Shown piece after piece: positions 4,984-40,793 of a stretch of 64,000 bases of DNA. Position numbers and translations under genes: made by a program. The notes below the pieces were generated by a model. It was given only the letters and a program-made list of their open reading frames with translations. It had not been told where the DNA came from and ran no database searches. Position 1 is the first letter of the stretch, and every line of letters begins with the position of its first letter. Origin of the DNA: Methanospirillum stamsii (GTDB taxonomy: Archaea > Halobacteriota > Methanomicrobia > Methanomicrobiales > Methanospirillaceae); assembly GCF_003173335.1 (NCBI RefSeq), contig NZ_QGMZ01000011.1, positions 62,001 to 126,000 on the forward strand. Direction: 5' to 3'.

Positions 4984-6483
4984 TTAATCTAACGGCTGAC
5001 TATATTTTTTCCACACTTGTTCTCTGAAAACCGGGCCACTGTTATAGGAACAGAATGGAATTAATGTTCCATCTGGTGTTGCATAATGTATACAACATCT
5101 GCTCACTCGTTCGATATCATAATTATAATTATCCATAAAATGCATCATTCCAATAAAAAGTGCATTCCAATGGAATTCTCTAAGAGAATCAAAATTATGT
5201 GTAATAAGTGCCTTTCCAAGACTGGTCCAGAGTTCTTTTCCTCCCTCTTCACTCTTTTTGATAGAGGAATAGAGTTCCTTAATACCGTTTATTGCAACCA
5301 TCTTCCGGCTAATTGGCCCCGCGGAGGAAAGTTGTGATGTCAGACGGTCTATTGATTCAAAAAATGCATCAACATCTATCATCCGGTTAATCGGAACAAT
5401 TTTTTTATCTCTGACAAATACGTAAGTAGCTGCACCACAATGTTGATGTGCAGTAAACCGTAACTGTGGTTTTCCCGTGTATGCTTCAACAAAATCACTG
5501 ATTGGAACAACACAAGGTACCGGATAGAAATCTTCCTTTTCTACTTCTCTTTTAGTTTGTGATTCTATTCTATCGAGTAATTCAGGAATCGTAATTCTCT
5601 CACGGGTAATATCTTCAAGGGAAGCTGCTCCGGTAAATGAAACCGGCTGGAAATTTACTCCCCTGATGACATCAATGTTTTCAGCTGCAAATCTGACAAT
5701 GTCACCAAGCTCATGATCATTTTTCCCTTTGATAATTGTGGGAACAAGAACAATTCCCTGTTTAGCTTTTCTCAGGTTTTCAATTGCCTTTAGATCATGG
5801 GTTAATTTAAAATTTGTCTCCTTTGAAACACCATCAAAATGAAGATAAACAGTAGAAAGGCCGGATTGTCTTAATTTTAAAGCAAATTCCGGATCTTTGG
5901 CAATCAAAATACCATTTGTTGCAAGTTGTACCTGCATGAAACCCATAGATTTGGCCAAAGCAATAATCTCAAAGAGATCTTCCCTGAGCGTTGGTTCCCC
6001 ACCTGCAAACTGAACTGCTGGAGCAGGAGTTGGCTTTTCTGAACGAAGCAGTTCAAGCATGGATTTAACCTGCTCAAAAGTGGGTTCGTAAATATAACCA
6101 CACGCACGTGCATTGGCAAAACAGAAATCACAATTAAGATTGCATCGGTTTGTTAAATCGATATTCGCAAGCAATGTTGTAGATTTATGGTTATTACAAA
6201 GACCACAGTCAAAAGGACATGTGCTATTATCACGAATAACCTGGGGGTTACTCACACCATTCCCTTTAATATCAAAGTCTTCATATCTGCGCCATGCCTC
6301 GGCATCATCCCAGTACAAATACGAAAAGAATCCATGATCAGGACAGGTCCTATCAATATACACCTTTCCGTTTTTTTCCACAATCTCTGCTTCCAGTATT
6401 TTTTTACAAATTGGACAGAGACTTTTCGTTTTCTTGAGGAGTATACTATCACCACCAATTGGTATTTCCATACCCTGAACCAT
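4984..6483 (-). CDS. tes: Radical SAM tetraether lipid synthase (Tes)
   Basis: This radical SAM enzyme of about 499 residues resembles the archaeal tetraether lipid synthases (MJ0619 group), which join archaeol phytanyl chains into membrane-spanning tetraethers. The N-terminus has a cysteine-rich part (LCPICKK, RTCPDHGFF), then TCPFDCGLCNN, and the radical SAM motif CNLNCDFC. SAM-binding features follow (QFAGGEPTLRED). A late CCIHYATPDGTLIPFC holds extra cysteines for auxiliary iron-sulfur clusters. I place the start at 6483 (MVQGMEIP) or 6471, because the longer frame to 6798 runs antisense through carS. The gene faces carS, another enzyme of lipid synthesis. Confidence 0.82.
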   Translation of the reverse strand: MVQGMEIPIGGDSILLKKTKSLCPICKKILEAEIVEKNGKVYIDRTCPDHGFFSYLYWDDAEAWRRYEDFDIKGNGVSNPQVIRDNSTCPFDCGLCNNHKSTTLLANIDLTNRCNLNCDFCFANARACGYIYEPTFEQVKSMLELLRSEKPTPAPAVQFAGGEPTLREDLFEIIALAKSMGFMQVQLATNGILIAKDPEFALKLRQSGLSTVYLHFDGVSKETNFKLTHDLKAIENLRKAKQGIVLVPTIIKGKNDHELGDIVRFAAENIDVIRGVNFQPVSFTGAASLEDITRERITIPELLDRIESQTKREVEKEDFYPVPCVVPISDFVEAYTGKPQLRFTAHQHCGAATYVFVRDKKIVPINRMIDVDAFFESIDRLTSQLSSAGPISRKMVAINGIKELYSSIKKSEEGGKELWTSLGKALITHNFDSLREFHWNALFIGMMHFMDNYNYDIERVSRCCIHYATPDGTLIPFCSYNSGPVFREQVWKKYSQPLD

Positions 6484-6522
6484 CTTCTGCTCATATGTAT
6501 GCAGAAACCTAACCTTATAGGT

Positions 6523-7086
6523 ATGGTGAATTTTGTATCTTTTGTCATAGAAGGAGCGGTTCTTATCGGCTCTGCAATATGGCTGATGCTGCCCGCGTAT
6601 CTTCCTAATAATATTGCAGCAATTGGAGGAGGGGGGACCCCCATAGATTTCGGCAAGAAATGGACAGATAATAAACGCATCTTTGGAGACGGAAAAACAA
6701 TACGGGGATTTATTTTGGGAGTGTTCGCAGGAATTCTGATTGGCTTTTGTCAAATATTTGCCGAGAATTCTGGAATGGTTCCCTGGTTTTTCCCTCATTC
6801 AATTATTGCAGTTATTACTCTCGCGTTTGGTTCATTATTAGGTGATATGATAAAAAGTTTTTTTAAACGACGAAAAGGGATTGAACGCGGGGGTGAATGG
6901 TTTCTTATAGACCAATATGATTTTGTGATAGGAGCTCTTTTGTTGACACTATTATGCGATCCTGAATGGATGATTAATACGATGAATTTTTCTTTATTAA
7001 TCACCATACTTGTAATAACTCCTCTTCTGCATCGAACAGTGAATATTATCGGGTATAAAATGGGACTGAAGAAGGTACCATGGTAA
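6523..7086 (+). CDS. carS: CDP-archaeol synthase
   Basis: The protein of about 187 residues is the integral membrane enzyme that activates the unsaturated archaetidic acid with CTP to give CDP-archaeol (formerly DUF46). The signature LPAYLPNNIAA-GGGTPIDFG lies near the N-terminus, followed by GDGKTIRGF and the RGGEWFLIDQYDFVIGA block, with four to five membrane helices. The frame is open back to 6187, but homologues start just before the first helix, so ATG at 6523 (or 6499) is preferred. The gene is divergent from tes with about 39 bases between starts and overlaps pyrE by 7 bases. Confidence 0.88.
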   Translation: MVNFVSFVIEGAVLIGSAIWLMLPAYLPNNIAAIGGGGTPIDFGKKWTDNKRIFGDGKTIRGFILGVFAGILIGFCQIFAENSGMVPWFFPHSIIAVITLAFGSLLGDMIKSFFKRRKGIERGGEWFLIDQYDFVIGALLLTLLCDPEWMINTMNFSLLITILVITPLLHRTVNIIGYKMGLKKVPW

Positions 7087-7598
7087 CACAAACATTAAAA
7101 GAGATGCTTATCTCTGCTGAAGCAATAAAATTTGGAGACTTTACTCTTGCTTCCGGGAAAAAAAGTTCAGTATACATAGATATCAAAAAAGCGATTACAA
7201 ATCCGGAGATACTAAAAAAGATTGCATCAGAAGTAATTGATATCGAAAATAATTTTGATGCTGTTGCCGGAGTCGCAGTCGGGGCTGTACCCCTTGCTGT
7301 ATCAGTATCACTTGCCTGTGGTAAACCCTATATAATTATTAGAAAGGAACAAAAGGGACACGGATTAGCAAGTCTTTTCATCGGAGAAGTATCTGGGAAA
7401 AAAATACTTCTGGTTGAAGATGTGACAACTTCAGGGGGATCTGCTATTTTTGGTATTGAACAGATAAGAAATGCTGGTGGGATCATAGAAAATGTGATTT
7501 CTGTCGTAGATCGAAATGAAGGAGCAACTGAAACAATGAATAAAATGGGAATCAACCTTGTTCCATTAGTCAGAATGGAAGAACTGATTCAAAACTGA
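7080..7598 (+). CDS. pyrE: Orotate phosphoribosyltransferase
   Basis: This 172-residue type I phosphoribosyltransferase forms OMP from orotate and PRPP. The PRPP-binding motif VLLVEDVTTSGGSA-type block appears as KILLVEDVTTSGGSAIFG, and the orotate/loop residues lie in IIRKEQKGHG. The length matches archaeal PyrE. The start overlaps the carS stop, which suggests translational coupling. The 3' end overlaps the convergent gene 7570-8061 by 29 bases. Confidence 0.92.
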   Translation: MVTQTLKEMLISAEAIKFGDFTLASGKKSSVYIDIKKAITNPEILKKIASEVIDIENNFDAVAGVAVGAVPLAVSVSLACGKPYIIIRKEQKGHGLASLFIGEVSGKKILLVEDVTTSGGSAIFGIEQIRNAGGIIENVISVVDRNEGATETMNKMGINLVPLVRMEELIQN

Positions 7599-8061
7599 TT
7601 TTACCTTTTTCTCTGGGGATAATATTTACCTGTGCATCATCAGTTATACCGGAAATAGTAACTCCATCTTCAGTTTTCTGAATAACAATTCCGGTCATTT
7701 TTTCTGAACCACAAAGTAGATGTTGTTCCGGATGAGTACCACGCTCAATTGAACAGTTAAGTTCAATCATATCACCAGCAGAAACTACCATCCTCAATCT
7801 TTTACTCCCGGGGTGATTCTTTGGTAGAACGATTAATGGTGAATGATATTCACGGATTAGTTCTAACAAAATTATTGCCTGACCGATATCTCCATCTTCA
7901 GGAGCTGATACAATTACCAGTTCACCATATTCCAGATATTGACAATATTCTTCAGAATACGTTTCAATAAAAAGAGTAAAAGGGCTGAGAACCCTCCCTA
8001 TGAGGATAAACGCATTCTCTTTACGAACACAAAGATATTCATCCGTGAACTTAAAAATCAT
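7570..8061 (-). CDS. Conserved-looking protein of unknown function (163 aa)
   Basis: I do not recognise this family. The 163-residue soluble protein has an alpha/beta first half (ELVIVSAPEDGDIGQAIILLELIREYHSPLIVLPK) followed by a beta-rich second half (MIELNCSIERGTHPEQH, GITDDAQVNIIPREKGK). It has no membrane segment or signal peptide. Its ATG overlaps the stop of the zinc-ribbon gene 8058-8213 in an ATGA arrangement, so the two are probably translated together. The last 29 bases lie over the 3' end of pyrE on the other strand. Confidence 0.6.
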   Translation of the reverse strand: MIFKFTDEYLCVRKENAFILIGRVLSPFTLFIETYSEEYCQYLEYGELVIVSAPEDGDIGQAIILLELIREYHSPLIVLPKNHPGSKRLRMVVSAGDMIELNCSIERGTHPEQHLLCGSEKMTGIVIQKTEDGVTISGITDDAQVNIIPREKGKISFESVLPF

Positions 8062-8213
8062 GCATCTTCAGTGCAATTATCTGAACCACAGGTGGGGCAG
8101 CGAATGTTTTTTCCGATAGTATTAAAACTACTGCCGCAATCCTTACACTTATAACTTTTCGCTTTAAGCCCTTCATCAAAATCAATATCCACGGGTCCGC
8201 CAACGGTGCACAT
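8058..8213 (-). CDS. Small zinc-ribbon protein (51 aa)
   Basis: This short gene encodes 51 residues that begin MCTVGGPVDIDFDEG and carry a zinc ribbon, CKDC at residues 23-26 and CPTC at 39-42. The ATG at 8213 has a strong Shine-Dalgarno-like AGGTGAT 6 bases upstream, and the stop overlaps the next ATG (ATGA). This supports a real gene despite its size. Zinc ribbons of this type often act in transcription, translation or protein contacts, but no specific role can be given. Confidence 0.72.
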   Translation of the reverse strand: MCTVGGPVDIDFDEGLKAKSYKCKDCGSSFNTIGKNIRCPTCGSDNCTEDA

Positions 8214-8286
8214 GCTCTATCACCTGATAGAATACTCTTCCTGCATAGTAATAAAACCGATCATCTTTCTATGAAAAAAAAGATAA

Positions 8287-10095
8287 TTATAACTCAACAC
8301 GGGTAATTACACCGTGTACCTTGTGAGAAGGTAACCGATGATATTGTACAAATGAAGGGCAGAGTCTTTTTAAAGCATTAAATATTTTCCAGATAATATT
8401 GTTGGTAACAATTTCTTCCATGCCATAAAAGATGGTCTTCTCCTGGATATCTGCATCACGAATGATTCGCATAAGATCAATAATCTGCATGTATCCATAC
8501 TGAATAGAAAGATGTGAGAGACCTTCCTCAATTTTTTTATCAAAATGCCAGGAGAAACCATATGGTTCTTCTTTAATATCAAGAGAAATTATCACATTTT
8601 CTTCGTAGATAATCTCATTATTAAACATGGTCCGGGAGATATATGCAGGAACCTGATCAAGAGATCTGGCAAAATAAAGTGCCGTTCCTCTGAGATGCCT
8701 GGCATTTTTGTAAGCGCGAGTGTATTTTTTTATAAACTGATCGTAACTCATTGGTTTCATAGCCTTATACAGAGCCTTCTGACCATTGATATAAATCAAA
8801 ATTATTGAAAAGGGAACGGCTGCGATCACCAGGGAGAGATATCCGCCATGAGGTATCTTTGAAACCGTTGATAAGAAAAATGAAATATCAACAAGAGTTA
8901 CCAGCATCGCAAGACCCACATAGAGATATTTTCGCTTACAAAGAAAAATCGCAATCATGAAAGAACCGGTAATTGACATTGTTCCGGTGACTGCAAGACC
9001 ATACGCATTTGCAAGACGTTCAGAGTACTGAAAGATTATCAAAACACAAATTACTGCAAAACAAAGCAACCAATTTACCGTATTAATATAGATCTGGGTT
9101 CGTAATTCATCGGAGGTATAATCCACTGGAAGCATAGGGAGAAGATGAGTAGTAATAGCCTGATAAATAATAGAGAAAATTCCACTTATTACTGCTTGTG
9201 ATGCGATAATTGTTGCCAATATCATAAGGATTAAAAATGGAATATAAAGAATTTGTGATTCAGAAAAGATCATCTCAAATAAGGGATTAGATACATCAGT
9301 ATTTCTTAATAAAAATGCCGCCTGACCGAGATATGAAAATAATACCGCAATAAAAACAAAACCCCAGGCATACTGAATTGGTTCACGGCCAAGATGGCCC
9401 ATATCAGCAAACAGAGCTTCTGCACCAGTGGCACAAAGGACTATCAAAGAAAGAGAAAAAAATCCCATTGCTCCATTATTAAGAAAAAATTGTATTGCAT
9501 AATAAGGATTCAATGCACCAAGTATTTCAGGACTATATGAAACAGATATTGCTCCGGTTACAAACAGGGTAATAAACCAGACTACCATTACAGGACCGAA
9601 GGTTTTTGATACTCCCTCAGTACCTCGTTTTTGAAATAAAAACAATCCTAATGCTATAATAATTGCAAGAAATATCAACCAGTCCTGTGAGATTAATTCA
9701 AGACCTGGAATTTGCCTTATTCCTTCTACGGCGGAAAGTATTGAGATAGCAGGAGTAATAACACATTCACCAATCATCAGTGAAATTCCAAGAGTGGCTA
9801 AAAGTGTGAATATCGCCAGAACACTGGGCTTTTTTAACAAGGGCAGAAGGATTCCTTTCAAAACCAGAGTTCCTCCTTCACCTGTTTCAGAAAGTCGCAT
9901 CGCAAGAATAGTGTACTGAATTGTTACCATGATAATGAGTGTCCAGAATACGAGAGAAATTGTACCCATAATATTTTCCGGACTGGCTGGAAGAAAAAGA
10001 AATAAAACGGCAAGAGTATAAATCGGGCTGGTTCCGATGTCACCAAAAACCAGACCTGCTGCTTTAATTATTGAGTTACCTGATGGGTGAACCAT
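8287..10095 (-). CDS. kup: Kup-type potassium uptake transporter
   Basis: The 602-residue protein is a KUP/HAK potassium permease. It starts with the family signature GLVFGDIGTSPIYTL (residues 14-28), contains GEGGTLVLKG and the GECVITPAISILSAVEG block, and shows about twelve membrane helices up to residue 450. A cytosolic domain of about 150 residues follows. It probably imports potassium as compatible solute or for pH and voltage control. It is preceded on the same strand by the symporter gene, with 83 bases between them. Confidence 0.92.
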   Translation of the reverse strand: MVHPSGNSIIKAAGLVFGDIGTSPIYTLAVLFLFLPASPENIMGTISLVFWTLIIMVTIQYTILAMRLSETGEGGTLVLKGILLPLLKKPSVLAIFTLLATLGISLMIGECVITPAISILSAVEGIRQIPGLELISQDWLIFLAIIIALGLFLFQKRGTEGVSKTFGPVMVVWFITLFVTGAISVSYSPEILGALNPYYAIQFFLNNGAMGFFSLSLIVLCATGAEALFADMGHLGREPIQYAWGFVFIAVLFSYLGQAAFLLRNTDVSNPLFEMIFSESQILYIPFLILMILATIIASQAVISGIFSIIYQAITTHLLPMLPVDYTSDELRTQIYINTVNWLLCFAVICVLIIFQYSERLANAYGLAVTGTMSITGSFMIAIFLCKRKYLYVGLAMLVTLVDISFFLSTVSKIPHGGYLSLVIAAVPFSIILIYINGQKALYKAMKPMSYDQFIKKYTRAYKNARHLRGTALYFARSLDQVPAYISRTMFNNEIIYEENVIISLDIKEEPYGFSWHFDKKIEEGLSHLSIQYGYMQIIDLMRIIRDADIQEKTIFYGMEEIVTNNIIWKIFNALKRLCPSFVQYHRLPSHKVHGVITRVEL

Positions 10096-33154: not shown

Positions 33155-34465
33155 TTAAAATCTTATCGTTGGAAATGTATTAATTTTCCAGTATCCGTTT
33201 TCAATAATAAAAGATATTTCATAGGGTGTTTCATATTCTCTGGAATTTGTGTTCCACAAAAATGATCCTTTGACATTGCCCTCATCTAACCGATAAAAGG
33301 AATTATCAATCCTATAAGAAGTAATATTCACACCAGATTGTTTCATCAGATATAAATTACGAATAATTGTATCCTTTCCATTTTTCTCAATTATCTCATT
33401 AGAGAATAAATTAATAATTTCATTTTTAATTGGATCAGTTAAAAAATCTGAATTATACAAATTCACATAATAATCCATCATGTTTTTAAAATGTGAGGCC
33501 GGTTTATTTTCAGAATTTTGCTGTGTAATATTTGTATCCTTGCTTAACTGATAAGCAGGATCTGGCAATTTAATCTCTATTTGATATGATTTAATGTTTT
33601 GAGAAATGACTTCAACGCTATATGAATGATAACCTTCAAAGAATTTTTCTTTCCAAGGCCTTGGATCCCAATTTATTTGGATTTCATCCCCTTCTTCAGT
33701 CTTAATTTCATCCAATTCAGCCTTGCCACCACTATATGTTTCTTTATATGGGATTTCATCATCTCCTCTCCCGAATGTTCCCTTCCAAACTTTTGGATCT
33801 AGACCTCCTTCGGGTATGATTGTTTTAACTTCATTGGTATCGAGGTTTTTTACAATTATTTTAAAATATGGATTAAGGGCTGAAAGAGATTGAACGATAT
33901 TTTCATCTTCATCAACTTCTTCAAGAATGGGGTTTTGCAAATTTTCTGGCAGATCAACGGTATACCAAAGTTCCCAATATTTTGAGGGAATAAAAACAGG
34001 ACTTGAGAGTTGAGAATATTGACCATTAATAGTAGAAAATGTTTTTAAATTAACTGCAGGTTCTTTAAACGAATATCGTTGATATGAGGCAATATATTCC
34101 CGGGGAACGATTTTTTGACGAGTATCAATTCCAGGTTGCAACGTAACGGGAGATCCATTCCATGGTTCAAAACCCGGAGATGAAAAGTTTATATTTTTAG
34201 AATCATTTGTCAGATTACTTTCATCAAAAGAGAGATTCTGCAAATTAATTGTTTCATTAATTTCACTCGTATTATTAGAGTAAAAAGTCCCATTGTATGA
34301 TGCATTATCAAGAATAAGAGATTCATTCTTGCCCCCGAATAATCCGGATATTTCATCCGGAATTAATTTTGCTTCTTTTCCGGTTACAAGAGGTTTGATA
34401 TACATTGCCATTATCATAACGATAAGTATCGCCACGACGATAACAATCATATCCCGTTTTTCCAT
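33155..34465 (-). CDS. Membrane-anchored surface protein, paralogue A
   Basis: The 436-residue protein starts with MEKRDMIVIVVAILIVMIMAM, a short cytosolic tail and one membrane helix, with the remainder probably outside. The next 90 residues are rich in Asn and Ser with many glycosylation sequons. A beta-rich part near 150-290 (YWELWYTVDLPEN) and a C-terminal NTF2-like or lipocalin-like region follow. No known domain is clear. The anchor and the YWE(L/I)xY beta part are shared with the next gene upstream, so the two are tandem paralogues. Confidence 0.68.
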   Translation of the reverse strand: MEKRDMIVIVVAILIVMIMAMYIKPLVTGKEAKLIPDEISGLFGGKNESLILDNASYNGTFYSNNTSEINETINLQNLSFDESNLTNDSKNINFSSPGFEPWNGSPVTLQPGIDTRQKIVPREYIASYQRYSFKEPAVNLKTFSTINGQYSQLSSPVFIPSKYWELWYTVDLPENLQNPILEEVDEDENIVQSLSALNPYFKIIVKNLDTNEVKTIIPEGGLDPKVWKGTFGRGDDEIPYKETYSGGKAELDEIKTEEGDEIQINWDPRPWKEKFFEGYHSYSVEVISQNIKSYQIEIKLPDPAYQLSKDTNITQQNSENKPASHFKNMMDYYVNLYNSDFLTDPIKNEIINLFSNEIIEKNGKDTIIRNLYLMKQSGVNITSYRIDNSFYRLDEGNVKGSFLWNTNSREYETPYEISFIIENGYWKINTFPTIRF

Positions 34466-34471
34466 ACCTAC

Positions 34472-35122
34472 CTAGGTATCGCGTATGTACTTTAAAGGTA
34501 TCTGGATAGTGATGCGATATTCATCCAGTTGATTTGCATTAATATTCAGGAGATATTCTTTTCCACCTTCAAAAAACCGATAATCCTGGGGATTTTCTTC
34601 CTTTCCTTCTTTCCAGGTAATTGTCCGGATTGTCTTGAAAGCCCCATCAGATACCTCCTGAACATCCATGGAAAAAACTGCCTGCTGATTTGACGGAGTC
34701 ACATTATAATGAATTTCCCAGTAGGGTGTAGGAATCCTAAAAGAGGAAGTACTTCCTGCATATTTGCCTACAATTTCAGCATAATTTGTCATTTGAACTG
34801 CAGGCATTGGATTATCTGGCTCCGGTTGCCAGGTCATTGGTGTAATTTCTGGAGTTGGTTCAAGCGCAGATGTTTCTTTCACAACAGGACTTGCTATTGA
34901 CTCAACAAACTCCTGCTTCTCAGGTGTTTTTTGTTCAACCGGAGTTGAAACCGGTTCACTTGGAAGAGGTGTTTCAAACTGTTCTATTGGCGTAATTTCC
35001 AGAACAGGAGATTCTGGAAGAAGAATTACCGGTTGGCCGGTAAGCATTGGTTTCACCACGACAGCCATTATGAGTACTATAATTATTGCTGCGAAAATGA
35101 CAATTATATCCCGCTTTTCCAT
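34472..35122 (-). CDS. Membrane-anchored surface protein, paralogue B
   Basis: The 216-residue protein begins MEKRDIIVIFAAIIIVLIMAV, nearly the same anchor as paralogue A, then has a proline- and glutamate-rich linker (ITPIEQFETPLPSEPVSTP) and a beta domain (PYWEIHYNVTPSNQQAVFSM; FFEGGKEYLLNINANQLDEY). That domain matches the middle of paralogue A. It lacks the last 150 residues of A. A TATA box lies at 35156-35170 on this strand, and the gap between the two genes is 6 bases, so both are likely in one transcript. Confidence 0.68.
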   Translation of the reverse strand: MEKRDIIVIFAAIIIVLIMAVVVKPMLTGQPVILLPESPVLEITPIEQFETPLPSEPVSTPVEQKTPEKQEFVESIASPVVKETSALEPTPEITPMTWQPEPDNPMPAVQMTNYAEIVGKYAGSTSSFRIPTPYWEIHYNVTPSNQQAVFSMDVQEVSDGAFKTIRTITWKEGKEENPQDYRFFEGGKEYLLNINANQLDEYRITIQIPLKYIRDT

Positions 35123-35282: not shown

Positions 35283-36158
35283 ATGGCAGATAGTAATAAA
35301 CCAAATCCTGAAACCTGTGATAATAACTGTTCATCATGTCCCTCCGGGGCAACCTGCCCGTCAGCAGGAGGAAAACTCCCACCCAAGGCAAATATTGATG
35401 CGAAGCATACAATTCTTGTTTTATCCGGAAAAGGAGGAGTGGGAAAATCGACTGTCGCAGTAAACCTTGCATATGCCCTGTCAAATCATGGAAAAAATGT
35501 AGGTCTTCTTGATCTCGACATTCATGGACCGAATGTCCCAAAGATGCTTGGTATTGAAGATCACAAACTCCTGGCAGATCAGAATAAAATCGTACCGGTA
35601 AAAGTTACCGGAACCCTTCAGGTTGTTTCAATGGCTTTTCTCCTTCCGGAAAAACATTCTCCGGTAATCTGGCGTGGAGCGATGAAATCAGGTGCAATTA
35701 AACAATTTCTTGAAGATACCGAATGGGGTAGTCTTGATTATCTCGTAGTCGATCTTCCCCCGGGAACAGGAGATGAAGCTCTTACAATTGCACAACTCGC
35801 GCCTAATGTTCGTGGTGCAGTAATTGTCACAACCCCGCAGGAGGTTTCCACTCTGGACTCGACCAAGGCCATTACCTTTGTTGAACAACTTAATCTGAAA
35901 GTTATCGGTGTTATTGAAAACATGAGCGGATTCATATGTCCGCATTGTGGTGAATCAGTAGACCTCTTTGGAAAAGGTGGCGGAGAACGTATTGCAAAAG
36001 AACACAATGTTCCATTTCTTGGCAGCCTGCCATTAGATCCAGAAGTCAGAAAAGCAGGAGATGAAGGCAGACCATTCATTATCCGACAAAAAGATTCTCT
36101 GACCTGGAAAGCAGTAGATAATGTTATGGAACAACTGGTAAAAATTGTTGAAACTTAA
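35283..36158 (+). CDS. Mrp/NBP35 family Fe-S cluster carrier ATPase
   Basis: The 291-residue protein is a P-loop ATPase of the ApbC/Mrp/NBP35 group that carries and transfers iron-sulfur clusters. An N-terminal cysteine region (CDNNCSSCPSGATC) can bind a cluster as in NBP35. The deviant Walker A LSGKGGVGKSTVAVNLA is at about 44-60, then LDLDIHGPNVPKMLG, VDLPPGTGDEALT, and the bridging CPHC motif FICPHCGES near residue 220. Such carriers are important in methanogens, which have many iron-sulfur enzymes. Confidence 0.93.
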   Translation: MADSNKPNPETCDNNCSSCPSGATCPSAGGKLPPKANIDAKHTILVLSGKGGVGKSTVAVNLAYALSNHGKNVGLLDLDIHGPNVPKMLGIEDHKLLADQNKIVPVKVTGTLQVVSMAFLLPEKHSPVIWRGAMKSGAIKQFLEDTEWGSLDYLVVDLPPGTGDEALTIAQLAPNVRGAVIVTTPQEVSTLDSTKAITFVEQLNLKVIGVIENMSGFICPHCGESVDLFGKGGGERIAKEHNVPFLGSLPLDPEVRKAGDEGRPFIIRQKDSLTWKAVDNVMEQLVKIVET

Positions 36159-36159
36159 T

Positions 36160-36468
36160 ATGGATTATGTAAGAGTTCTCTGTGGGAAAGAAGAAAAACT
36201 TCCCATTTATTCAGATATTGCACATTGTCTTGAAAACATTACACAATTTCCTGACCTGATAGAACCCATATACCGTGATGCTATCACCCAGAATGAAATC
36301 ACATTAGAAAAACTTCGGTTTGCGCTACTACGATTGCAGTTATATTCAGAAATACATCGGAATAGTGACATGGAAGAAGCACAAAAAATGCGATTTGTTT
36401 CGGAAATGATAGAACGCACAATTTTTGGGGGGTTATTTATCGAACGGGAAAGTTATGTATCAGAGTAG
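36160..36468 (+). CDS. Small protein of unknown function (102 aa)
   Basis: I do not recognise this 102-residue protein. It starts MDYVRVLCGKEEKLPIYSDI and is mostly helical, with an acidic middle (NSDMEEAQKMRFVSEMIERT). It has no membrane segment. Its ATG lies 1 base after the Mrp ATPase stop and its end is 5 bases before the ACT-MBL gene, so all three are probably one transcript. Confidence 0.55.
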   Translation: MDYVRVLCGKEEKLPIYSDIAHCLENITQFPDLIEPIYRDAITQNEITLEKLRFALLRLQLYSEIHRNSDMEEAQKMRFVSEMIERTIFGGLFIERESYVSE

Positions 36469-36473
36469 ATATC

Positions 36474-37988
36474 ATGTCCTCGGATAGGAATGAATTTTTT
36501 ATAATCAGAATTCCTGATACCGGTTCAATTTTAGAAGCAGTTCATATTATTGCCTCAGCAGGTCTGACCATTACCCGGTGCCATTATAACCGATCCTTAG
36601 ATCCCGACACTGCTTTTTTTTCTGTATCCGGCAATGATGACGGTTATAAAAAAGGCGCCCAGGTATTATCTGATAAAAGCTATCTTCAGAAAACCATCAC
36701 ATATCCAAGAAACATTCGTTTTACTATAAAAGTCCCTGAAATACCAGGAACCCTGCATAATATCCTAACGATATTGAACCGATATCATGCTGAAATCAAT
36801 TCACTTTCATTTGATAATCGTGGCAGGTATCCAGACCTTCTACAGGTAACTCTCCGGGTCAGAGAATCAGAAAAAATTGAAGATCTTATAGAAGAAATCC
36901 AATCTACCTATCCTGTTGAAATTGACGGATATGATTGTGGTGATAGTTGTGATGATGGCAGTCAGTTTTATGTCAGATATGCTGCTCGTGTAAGTGAAAT
37001 ACTACAGATATCAGATGAACCACATCTATTAAAATTATTAAACCAGTTCAGTCATCTGGCCCAGCAACTTACTGAATATGGAAAAGAATATCAGGACACC
37101 CTTGAACAGATCCTACAAAATGGGATACGTCTGAAAGAAACAACAAATGATGGCTTTTATGCCGATGTTCAAATTTTTGAAATATCTGATACTCTCACCC
37201 TCTATTGTTTCCAACTTCCAGGAGGGGGTAGTATTTTTGTCATTAATGCCCCGAACGAACGGGTAATGATTGATACCGGATATGGTATCTACCATACAGA
37301 TGTTCTCCGGATGTTTGAGCATTATCATCTTGGTGGCATTAATGATTTTACTCGTATAATTCTCACTCATGGAGATACTGATCACTGTGGCGCGTCCGGA
37401 TTTTTCAATGCCCCCGTTTATACTCATGAAGGGACATGGAAAATTATTGAAACAAATAACCGGGCCTTTGGAGCAACATCGCAGGATCAGGTTTTAGAGC
37501 AGGTTTATACTGTTATGATAAATCTGTTTGCACACATGACCCCTCCAAAAGTCTGTGAATTATTACCTCCCACAGGGGAAAGGAAACGCGGAGAATTTCC
37601 AATTTTGACAACTTTTTCAGCGGGCGGTTATGAATTTGAAATACTTGAAGGGCATGGCGGTCACCAACACGGATTGATTTACATTTTATGCCAGGAAGCA
37701 GGGTTGTTATTCACATCAGATACAATTTTAAATCTGAAATATTTAAGTCCCGAGAGAAGTGAATACAACAATTTTGCAGTTTATCTGGTCACAACGGTCA
37801 ATGTGGATCCAGAATTAGTGAAAAGTGAACGAAAAGCATTATCCTCTCTTGCCATTACTCTTGATTCAGAACTTCAACAACAAGGAAAACGGCTTCTTCT
37901 TTGTTGTGGTCATGGACCGGTTTCTATAATGGATAAAGGGGAGATGGTGCCCGCAACAGAACCTGTTGTATATCACCATAAACCCTGA
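36474..37988 (+). CDS. ACT-ACT-metallo-beta-lactamase fusion protein
   Basis: The 504-residue protein has two ACT-type ligand-binding domains (about 6-75 and 82-155; the second reads TIKVPEIPGTLHNILTILNRYHAEI) followed by a helical linker and a metallo-beta-lactamase hydrolase domain (about 235-490). Metal ligands are in ILTHGDTDHCG, GHGGHQHG, FTSDT and CCGHGP. ACT domains usually sense amino acids, so the hydrolase may be controlled by one. The substrate is not known. Overlap with the small gene before it is nearly total in spacing (5 bases). Confidence 0.8.
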   Translation: MSSDRNEFFIIRIPDTGSILEAVHIIASAGLTITRCHYNRSLDPDTAFFSVSGNDDGYKKGAQVLSDKSYLQKTITYPRNIRFTIKVPEIPGTLHNILTILNRYHAEINSLSFDNRGRYPDLLQVTLRVRESEKIEDLIEEIQSTYPVEIDGYDCGDSCDDGSQFYVRYAARVSEILQISDEPHLLKLLNQFSHLAQQLTEYGKEYQDTLEQILQNGIRLKETTNDGFYADVQIFEISDTLTLYCFQLPGGGSIFVINAPNERVMIDTGYGIYHTDVLRMFEHYHLGGINDFTRIILTHGDTDHCGASGFFNAPVYTHEGTWKIIETNNRAFGATSQDQVLEQVYTVMINLFAHMTPPKVCELLPPTGERKRGEFPILTTFSAGGYEFEILEGHGGHQHGLIYILCQEAGLLFTSDTILNLKYLSPERSEYNNFAVYLVTTVNVDPELVKSERKALSSLAITLDSELQQQGKRLLLCCGHGPVSIMDKGEMVPATEPVVYHHKP

Positions 37989-38042: not shown

Positions 38043-38642
38043 ATGAATCAGCACCGTGTACAGGATATGATGCAACTGATGGCATCCCGCATTGATGCCA
38101 TTGCGGATCATATTTCAGACCAGGAAGTATCCGCATTCATTTCAGAACTACTCAATGCAAAACGGATCTATGTTATGGGTGCCGGAAGATCAGGACTTGT
38201 TGCCAAAGCATTTGCAATGCGTCTCATGCATCTTGGAATGACAAGTTATGTCGTTGGAGAAACAATTACGCCGGCTCTTCAAAAAGGTGATCTGATAGTT
38301 GTATTATCCGGTTCAGGAAAAACAAAAACTATCATCGAGATTGTCCAAACTGCAAAGGAAATAGGAGGACGGATTTGTCTGATTACATCCAATCCGGATT
38401 CTTCAATCGGTAAAATCGCAGTTTCCACGGTTATGATTGAAAATTACCGAGATAATATTCCGGATGAAAGCAGGGAATATGACACCAGACAAATGCTTGG
38501 TGAACACCGATCCTTTGCTCCTTTAGGAACCCTGTTTGAAACCGCAGCAATGACTTTTTGTGATGCGGTCATATCAAGGCTGATGGAAATCACACAGACT
38601 GATGAATCCGAACTAAAAGGCAGACATGCCAATATTGAGTAA
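38043..38642 (+). CDS. hxlB: 6-phospho-3-hexuloisomerase
   Basis: The 199-residue SIS-domain protein converts hexulose-6-phosphate and fructose-6-phosphate. In archaea it works in the ribulose-monophosphate route to make ribulose-5-phosphate. The signature is RIYVMGAGRSGLVAKAFAMR (about 40-60), LSGSGKTKTIIE and the late EHRSFAPLGTLFE. The hps partner is not in the window. GAGAGGT precedes the ATG closely. Confidence 0.87.
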   Translation: MNQHRVQDMMQLMASRIDAIADHISDQEVSAFISELLNAKRIYVMGAGRSGLVAKAFAMRLMHLGMTSYVVGETITPALQKGDLIVVLSGSGKTKTIIEIVQTAKEIGGRICLITSNPDSSIGKIAVSTVMIENYRDNIPDESREYDTRQMLGEHRSFAPLGTLFETAAMTFCDAVISRLMEITQTDESELKGRHANIE

Positions 38643-38649
38643 ATATATT

Positions 38650-39756
38650 ATGAAAAAGATATCACAACGAGCCCTGGATATCGAGATGTCAGGTATCAGG
38701 AAATTTTTCCAGGCTGCAAAACCAGACTCGATAAATATGACACTGGGTCAGCCTGATTTTGATACACCCGAACATGTAAAAAACGCTGCAATTCAGGCAA
38801 TACATGAAGGGAAAACAGGATATACTTTTAATGCAGGTCTTCCCGAATTACGTGAGGCAATTTCAGAAAAATTTGAGCGTGAAAATTCACTAAACTATAA
38901 TCCGGATCAAATTATTGTGACCGCAGGTGCCGGTGAAGCGCTTTTTATTGCAATGCAGAGTCTTGTGGATTCCGGAGATAGAGTTCTTCTGACAAATCCT
39001 GGTTTTGTCTCTTATGAAGCTTGTATCCGCCTTGCAGAAGGAAAGCCGGATTATATTCCTTTAACAAATGATCTCCATATTAACCAGGAAATATTACAGG
39101 AAAAAATATCCGGCGCCAGATTGCTCATCCTGAATTCACCGAACAATCCAACAGGTGCAGTAGAATCACCTGAAAACATCAGAGCCATTGTTGAAACCGC
39201 TATGGATGCCGGAGTGACTGTACTTTCAGACGAAGTGTATGAACATATCATTTATGATGCAGTCCATAAAAGTGCGGGAACCTATGGTGATGATATCATT
39301 ACGGTTAATGCTGCAAGTAAAACCTATGCAATGACCGGATGGAGACTTGGTTATCTTGCCGGACCCGATGAATATATGGAACAATGTCTGAAAGTTCACC
39401 AATACTGTCAGACATGTGCTACATCTATCAGTCAGTATGCAGGCCTTGCGGCATATACGGGGGACCAGTCATGTGTAAAAACCATGCAGGATGAATACAA
39501 AGCAAGACGGGACATCCTGGTTTCAGGTCTGAAAGAGATGGGTGTTAAATTCCCGGTACCCGAAGGTGCATTTTATGTTTTTGCCCCTCTTGGAAAAGAG
39601 ATAACTAGTAAGATTATGGATGCAGGGGTAATAATAGTCCCCGGAGATGCATTTGGAGATGCCGGAGCGGAGTATGCCCGATTTAGTTATGCTACATCAA
39701 GACAAAATATTTATGCTGCAATTGAACGAATGAAACCGGTTTTTGGTGAAGATTAA
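38650..39756 (+). CDS. Class I/II pyridoxal-phosphate aminotransferase
   Basis: The 368-residue enzyme (ATG at 38650) is an aspartate-aminotransferase-like protein. The sugar-fold residues are MTLGQPDFDTPEHV, LNSPNNPTGA, SDEVYEHI, and the PLP lysine in VNAASKTYAMTGWRLGY. The late RFSYATS holds the substrate-binding Arg. Substrate is likely aspartate, alanine or an aromatic amino acid. The frame also opens at 38626 inside hxlB. It overlaps the M42 peptidase by one base (TAATG). Confidence 0.9.
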   Translation: MKKISQRALDIEMSGIRKFFQAAKPDSINMTLGQPDFDTPEHVKNAAIQAIHEGKTGYTFNAGLPELREAISEKFERENSLNYNPDQIIVTAGAGEALFIAMQSLVDSGDRVLLTNPGFVSYEACIRLAEGKPDYIPLTNDLHINQEILQEKISGARLLILNSPNNPTGAVESPENIRAIVETAMDAGVTVLSDEVYEHIIYDAVHKSAGTYGDDIITVNAASKTYAMTGWRLGYLAGPDEYMEQCLKVHQYCQTCATSISQYAGLAAYTGDQSCVKTMQDEYKARRDILVSGLKEMGVKFPVPEGAFYVFAPLGKEITSKIMDAGVIIVPGDAFGDAGAEYARFSYATSRQNIYAAIERMKPVFGED

Positions 39757-40793
39757 TGGTTTATAATTTATTAAAACGTCTTTCAGATGCCCACGGACTT
39801 TCAGGATTTGAAAGTAACATCAAGGATATTGTTAGAAAAGAACTTGATGGCTATGTAGATGAAATTTCCGAAGATAAACTTGGAAACCTGATCGCAGTTA
39901 AAAAAGGATCAGAGACCTCCGTCATGATTGCATCACATATGGATGAAATCGGTCTGATGGTCCAGTATATTGATGAAAAGGGATTTATAAAATTTGTAGG
40001 GATTGGTGGCTGGTATAACCCCACCCTGCACACACAACGAGTAGTTCTCCATGGAAGAAAAGGACCGGTTCCTGGAGTTATTGGTTCCAAACCCCCTCAT
40101 GTAATGACACCAGAAGATCGGAAAAAGGAAATTAAAATTGAAGATCTTTTTATCGATGTAGGTGCTTCATCAGCAGAAGAGGTAGATTCACTAGGAATAG
40201 AGATAGGAACTCCAGTAACTATTGAACAGGAGTTAATCAGACTTGCAAATGATAAAGTCACGGGAAAAGCACTAGACAATCGTGTGGGTGTTCTGGTTCT
40301 CATTGAAACGATGAGAAAGATGAAAACTTCCATGACGGTATATGCTGTTTTTACCGTACAGGAGGAAGTTGGTCTGAAAGGAGCAAAAGTTAGTGCCTTT
40401 GCATTAAACCCTGATTTTGCTATCGCTACTGATGTTACAATTCCGGGCGACCATCCAGGGGTTTCTAAAAAAGAAGCATCTCCGGAGATGGGTAAAGGAC
40501 CGGTTCTTGTTCTTGCAAGTGCATCAGGAAGAGGACTATTGGCAGATTCCAGGCTTAGTTCCTGGCTTAGAAATGCCGGGGATAAAATGAAAATTCCATA
40601 TCAGTTAGAGGTCGGAGATGGAGGAAATACTGATGCCTCCATTATCAACATGGTCAGAGATGGAATACCGAGTATCCCTCTTTCTGTTCCTTCAAGATAC
40701 ATTCATTCACCAGTTGAAGTAGTAGATCTGAAAGACGTTCAGGCTACAATTGACTTGCTGATTGAAGCATTAAAGAAAAAACCAAAGTTCTAG
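39756..40793 (+). CDS. M42 family metallo-aminopeptidase
   Basis: The 345-residue protein is a tetrahedral-type M42 aminopeptidase. Metal ligands are seen in IASHMDEIGLMV, the ALDNRVG block, VQEEVGLKGAKV and ATDVTIPGDHPG, with the late SRYIHSPVEVVDLKD holding the last histidine. It degrades peptides released by the proteasome and is cytosolic. It is translationally coupled to the aminotransferase upstream, so the pair may handle peptide-derived amino acids. Confidence 0.92.
   Translation: MVYNLLKRLSDAHGLSGFESNIKDIVRKELDGYVDEISEDKLGNLIAVKKGSETSVMIASHMDEIGLMVQYIDEKGFIKFVGIGGWYNPTLHTQRVVLHGRKGPVPGVIGSKPPHVMTPEDRKKEIKIEDLFIDVGASSAEEVDSLGIEIGTPVTIEQELIRLANDKVTGKALDNRVGVLVLIETMRKMKTSMTVYAVFTVQEEVGLKGAKVSAFALNPDFAIATDVTIPGDHPGVSKKEASPEMGKGPVLVLASASGRGLLADSRLSSWLRNAGDKMKIPYQLEVGDGGNTDASIINMVRDGIPSIPLSVPSRYIHSPVEVVDLKDVQATIDLLIEALKKKPKF

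Follow-up and report, generated by a model that had tools for sequence, protein, structure and literature searches.

A fusion of tandem ACT domains to a metallo-beta-lactamase-fold domain with a conserved, non-canonical metal site in Methanospirillum stamsii and other Methanomicrobiales

Threonine deaminase (IlvA), aspartokinase and the GcvR/PurU proteins carry ACT domains, often in tandem, on a catalytic domain or in its service, and in PurU it is a tandem pair that regulates the enzyme. Among proteins of the metallo-beta-lactamase (MBL) fold, the lactonases, methyl parathion hydrolase and AidC bear the metal motif HxHxDH. The protein studied here, from Methanospirillum stamsii, resembles the ACT-regulated enzymes in sequence (IlvA models) and in fold (GcvR-like, AHAS small subunit and aspartokinase regulatory structures), but its catalytic domain has the MBL fold. 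Lactonases, methyl parathion hydrolase and AidC are the best structural matches of that domain, in a model of low confidence, but share 11–16% identity with it, and the fusion differs from them by its HxDxDH motif and its added ACT domains. The ACT-ACT-MBL layout recurs in a Methanosphaera protein, WP_323737597.1, annotated 'MBL fold metallo-hydrolase', which however is plasmid-borne and belongs to a distant second subfamily. We found no description of the ACT-ACT-MBL architecture in the literature searched, which included few subscription journals; in passages of PMC1796856 and PMC7285479 its terms appear separately.

The window, that is, the whole stretch of 64,000 nucleotides analysed, contains the gene at positions 36474 to 37988 of the + strand, as an ORF of 504 aa with an ATG start and no internal stops; it is present in a single copy in the genome. 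The predicted protein is composed of ACT domain 1 (36486 to 36701, +, residues about 5–76), ACT domain 2 (36714 to 36935, +, residues about 81–154), a helical linker (36951 to 37148, +, residues about 160–225) and the MBL domain (37149 to 37943, +, residues about 226–490). A sequence-only reading of this DNA had proposed two ACT domains fused to an MBL domain; the ORF, the profiles of orthologues and a model of the ACT half confirm this proposal, and the domain combination is real.

In the window copy taken alone, ACT2 is the sole ACT domain visible to Pfam, and it lies below the cut-off (ACT_4, residues 82–145, E 0.0017, 19.4 bits against a cut-off of 27), while ACT1 is too degenerate to be seen. 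We scanned 11 diverse members of the family. PF01842 was present in 9 of the 11 (best E 2.8e-11), and ACT_4 and Thr_dehydrat_C were each present in 6. The cut-off of 27 was exceeded by an ACT match in L012 (34.4 bits) and L008 (30.3 bits), by ACT_4 in L036 (33.3 bits) and by Thr_dehydrat_C in L022 (27.2 bits). Both domains are visible in L022 (PF01842 at 8–65, Thr_dehydrat_C at 81–152) and in L036 (PF01842 at 5–65, ACT_4 at 77–146). The best NCBIfam models were those of threonine deaminase, with the IlvA model TIGR01127 found in 8 of the 11 members (best E 1.3e-8). The ACT assignment is safe, because the orthologue profiles match where the window copy falls short.

The structure models agree with this assignment. 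The AlphaFold2 model of residues 1–161 (mean pLDDT 73.7, from 6 closely related sequences) contains the beta-alpha-beta-beta-alpha-beta unit twice; the N-terminal part is thus modelled as two ACT-like units, against the alternative that it does not fold as ACT. With this model Foldseek returned 142 PDB matches at E ≤ 0.001, the top ones being mostly ACT proteins, and tandem-ACT proteins were among the top ten (GcvR-like 1u8s, E 9.3e-7; AHAS small subunit 2f1f, E 1.3e-6). In a second structure comparison the model aligned with 1u8s (Z 10.3, rmsd 7.8, 149 aligned) and with ThrA 6dzs (Z 10.2, rmsd 2.3, 76 aligned); NikR, EF2/EF-G and other ferredoxin-like folds matched at similar Z, so that the fold by itself does not single out ACT, which the sequence profiles do. 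TM-scores of about 0.4 across both ACT domains make their mutual placement uncertain.

The MBL domain is recognized by PF00753 (Lactamase_B) at residues 249–421 (E 1.2e-13, 51.9 bits against a cut-off of 22.7), which is present in all 11 diverse members. The putative ligands are located in the motif H299-x-D301-x-D303-H304 (37368 to 37385, +), at H397 of the third motif GGHxxG (37662 to 37664, +), at D416 of FTSDT, the expected bridging ligand (37719 to 37721, +), and at H480 of the last motif GHG (37911 to 37913, +), all placed from alignments. None of these seven residues (H299, D301, D303, H304, H397, D416 and H480) varies across the 33 aligned sequences (the window protein, L002, L003, L007–L035 and L036). 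The family signature is THxDxDHxG, where an Asp replaces the second His of HxHxDH, the motif that is usual, though not universal, in the superfamily. An Asp at this position also occurs in nucleases such as ComEC, and a Glu in redox diiron proteins. Among the 21 other MBL loci of the same genome, 18 had a readable motif once L104, L106 and L115 were set aside, and by hand count 15 of these were HxH, 2 were HxE (flavodiiron type) and 1 was HxD, which makes the Asp of the fusion protein at that place unusual. The 'full metal site' of the sequence-only reading holds for the number of ligand positions but not for the motif. The site is conserved and non-canonical, and judging from related families it would bind metal.

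Confidence is low in the model of the full-length protein (mean pLDDT 53.5, 6 sequences). Over residues 218–501 its closest structural counterparts were lactonases and methyl parathion hydrolase (Z 12.2–13.2), for instance 5hif (Z 13.2, rmsd 4.6, 211 aligned) and AidC 4zo2 (Z 12.4, rmsd 4.5, 197 aligned), B1 beta-lactamases ranking next at a Z of about 11. Given the low model confidence, we read these lactonase-type matches as evidence of fold and not of function.

From the families to which its domains belong, we consider it about an even call that the fusion is an amino-acid-regulated, soluble small-molecule hydrolase. The protein would be soluble and probably dimeric or larger; its tandem ACT domains would have an amino acid as their ligand, perhaps one of the branched-chain type, and the helical linker would relay the binding to the MBL domain, whose active site would open or close in response. 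The reaction there would be the metal-dependent hydrolysis of a small ester, thioester, lactone or phosphoester. Such control would resemble that exerted by the tandem ACT domains of PurU or aspartokinase. Whereas the fusion, its conservation and the metal-ligand residues are observed, the metal itself, the substrate, the ligand, the oligomer and the allostery are extrapolated from families. The amino-acid-controlled hydrolase suggested earlier thus survives as the likeliest reading, in keeping with the architecture, although the motif differs from that of canonical hydrolases. A broader version, in which an HxDxDH MBL enzyme specific to methanogens and common to the whole order destroys a metabolite or a signal according to amino-acid supply, is a speculation to which we lend limited credence. 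If true, it would be a regulatory logic undescribed for the MBL superfamily in the literature searched.

The most serious alternative, which we nevertheless find rather improbable, is that the ACT domains act only as an oligomerization scaffold or bind protein partners, the MBL hydrolase being constitutive. Two observations fit it: in g18 (family f3) the ACT half was lost, yet the MBL copies keep their metal motif, and ACT1 of the Methanospirillum copies lacks one residue of the xPG ligand loop (alignment A1). In contrast, the P91-G92 loop of ACT2 is invariant in the 11 sequences of A1, and purifying selection on both ACT domains is about as strong as on the linker. When the window gene was compared with five relatives 71–76% identical to it (L002–L006), differences per site were 0.12–0.22 at non-synonymous and 0.69–0.91 at synonymous positions in every domain (pN 0.14–0.22 and pS 0.69–0.91 for ACT1 and ACT2), the synonymous differences being near saturation and the pN/pS ratios therefore rough. 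All domains are under purifying selection.

The loss in g18, which we take to be Methanocorpusculum-like, was examined in a tree of 47 rows built on the linker and MBL part. There the ACT-less copies L057–L061 cluster together (100/100) and group next to L020, an f3 sequence that has the ACT domains (100/96), meaning that the ACT half was lost in g18, with duplication. Since these copies retain the metal motif, ACT control would not be indispensable. The linker is largely retained even in copies without ACT domains. As for the preferred reading, an amino-acid-regulated hydrolase, it can be tested on one protein of ordinary size, for which the natural ACT-less versions are built-in controls.

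A nuclease of the RNase J/Z or ComEC type, acting on RNA or DNA under the control of amino-acid supply, seems to us a poor candidate. When PDB sequences were searched with the family profile, RNase J (7pcr) did rank first (3.2e-5), with an aCPSF1 model match at 0.0049 and weak matches to Avs1a and LmuA (best 7.1e-5 and 2.5e-4); however, the RNase J and aCPSF1 matches span the first metal-motif region only, and, unlike the beta-CASP RNases (RNase J, aCPSF1), the window protein and the 11 members had no beta-CASP domain, nor KH or other RNA-binding families, in Pfam scans. RNA, one of the substrates envisaged by the sequence-only reading, is accordingly a weak suggestion.

It is equally doubtful that the protein is a non-hydrolytic diiron protein of the ODP/flavodiiron kind, an amino-acid-gated sensor or reductase of O2 or NO. 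With the MBL domain of those proteins the fusion shares the fold and an acidic second motif residue, but this is an Asp and not a Glu; PMC6033852 gives His83, Glu85, Asp87, His88, His149, Asp168 and His229 as the ligands in the C. difficile flavodiiron protein CD1623. PF19583 (ODP) gave weak matches in 4 of 11 members (best E 0.0013), which in the members shown stayed below its cut-off of 27.2 (14.8 to 18.1 bits, the window protein having 14.8), and Foldseek, given the poor model of the whole protein, listed the ODP structure 6qrq among its hits (E 2.9e-4). A profile-profile comparison with a flavodiiron alignment was positive (probability 77.7, E 1.9e-5), as is expected within one superfamily. 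The 18-residue spacing between H397 and D416 was rejected as a flavodiiron mark, since this spacing is usual in ordinary MBLs. No flavodoxin match was found by Pfam in the window protein or the 11 members. A panel scored with the family profile speaks against the idea: ordinary HxHxDH MBLs, the best four of them at 26.1 to 19.0 bits, outranked 28 flavodiiron proteins, which reached at most 14.2 bits.

We then looked at the distribution of the gene. Of the 199 Methanomicrobiales genomes covered, 180 had a relative in a profile search at E 1e-20, as did 125 of the 132 of good quality, the other 7 of these giving no match at this threshold. A single-protein search at E 0.001 matched 86 of 294 genomes of the phylum; by hand count 63 of these matches were strong (E 1.3e-47 or better), the other 23 being short and weak. 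The 63 comprise 54 of the 55 sampled genomes of the window's order and 9 of f8 (genera g67 and g78), another family of the phylum, probably Methanosarcina-like. A contig scan based on six short peptide patterns yielded five close relatives. In viral, phage and plasmid collections the Methanosphaera sp. ISO3-F5 plasmid protein WP_323737597.1 was the one full-length relative (24.8% identity over 95%), all other matches covering the MBL part only. Restriction to methanogens is a statement about these collections and the window's phylum, which together made up the search. The ACT-MBL link, called unusual by the sequence-only reading, is thus common within one methanogen order yet, as far as the literature searched goes, uncharacterized. 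The gene is near-universal among the genomes analysed of an order important in methane production, its domains point to amino-acid sensing and metal catalysis, and it is a concrete candidate for a step in methanogen metabolism.

In the tree most families stay together. Those of f8 group in a single clade (100/100) nested among sequences of the order, but support for the deeper branches is weak (87/88), and transfer is no more than a possibility. A second, deep subfamily comprises L036 and the ACT-less L064; its long branches leave its position uncertain. Decay of the gene is seen in two f4 genomes: it is broken over several frames in L062 (G276:C37, about 6337–7821), and an ACT1 fragment is all that remains in L065 (G062:C6, about 8805–8963). 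In L063 (G257:C8, ORF 7940–9655) ACT2 is lengthened by an in-frame insertion, some tens of residues long; the match in G351, which begins late (profile position 118), may reflect the same insertion.

The neighbourhood gave little further indication. On the + strand, a small ORF without Pfam match (36145 to 36468) lies between mrp and the fusion gene, and stands beside mrp in part of f1; downstream are genes for 6-phospho-3-hexuloisomerase (HxlB, 38043 to 38642, over the NCBIfam cut-off), a class I/II aminotransferase (38626 to 39756, profile match) and an M42 aminopeptidase (39756 to 40793, profile match). We compared 27 distinct f1 loci (28 rows, L002 and L136 being on the same contig) by hand count. 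Mrp and the small ORF were directly upstream in 11 and an HxlB-like gene directly downstream in 12, and at least one of the HxlB-like, aminotransferase and M42 genes was found downstream on the same strand within 5 ORFs in 24. No partner gene conserved across the order was found, other families having other neighbours, and the operon argument is weak since neighbours are not conserved beyond the family level.

All 12 of the f5 and f6 genomes have, upstream of the fusion gene and on its strand, a gene for a class I methyltransferase (PF13649, E 2.6e-9); the distance is 1.1 kb in G172 and at most about 100 bases in the 11 others. The loci with this arrangement include L149–L153 and the f5 loci L007, L012, L014, L016, L021 and L030. 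It was rejected as a general partner: across the 294 genomes, its copies in f2, f3 and parts of f1 are located apart from the fusion gene, a search at E 1e-25 finds no counterpart in the M. stamsii genome or the fusion-bearing f8 genomes, and it is also present in some genomes without the fusion gene. Elsewhere in the window, on the − strand, the adjacent proteins encoded at 33155 to 34465 and 34472 to 35122 carry similar membrane-anchor-like stretches near their N-termini (MEKRD-IVI...), which suggests a tandem family.
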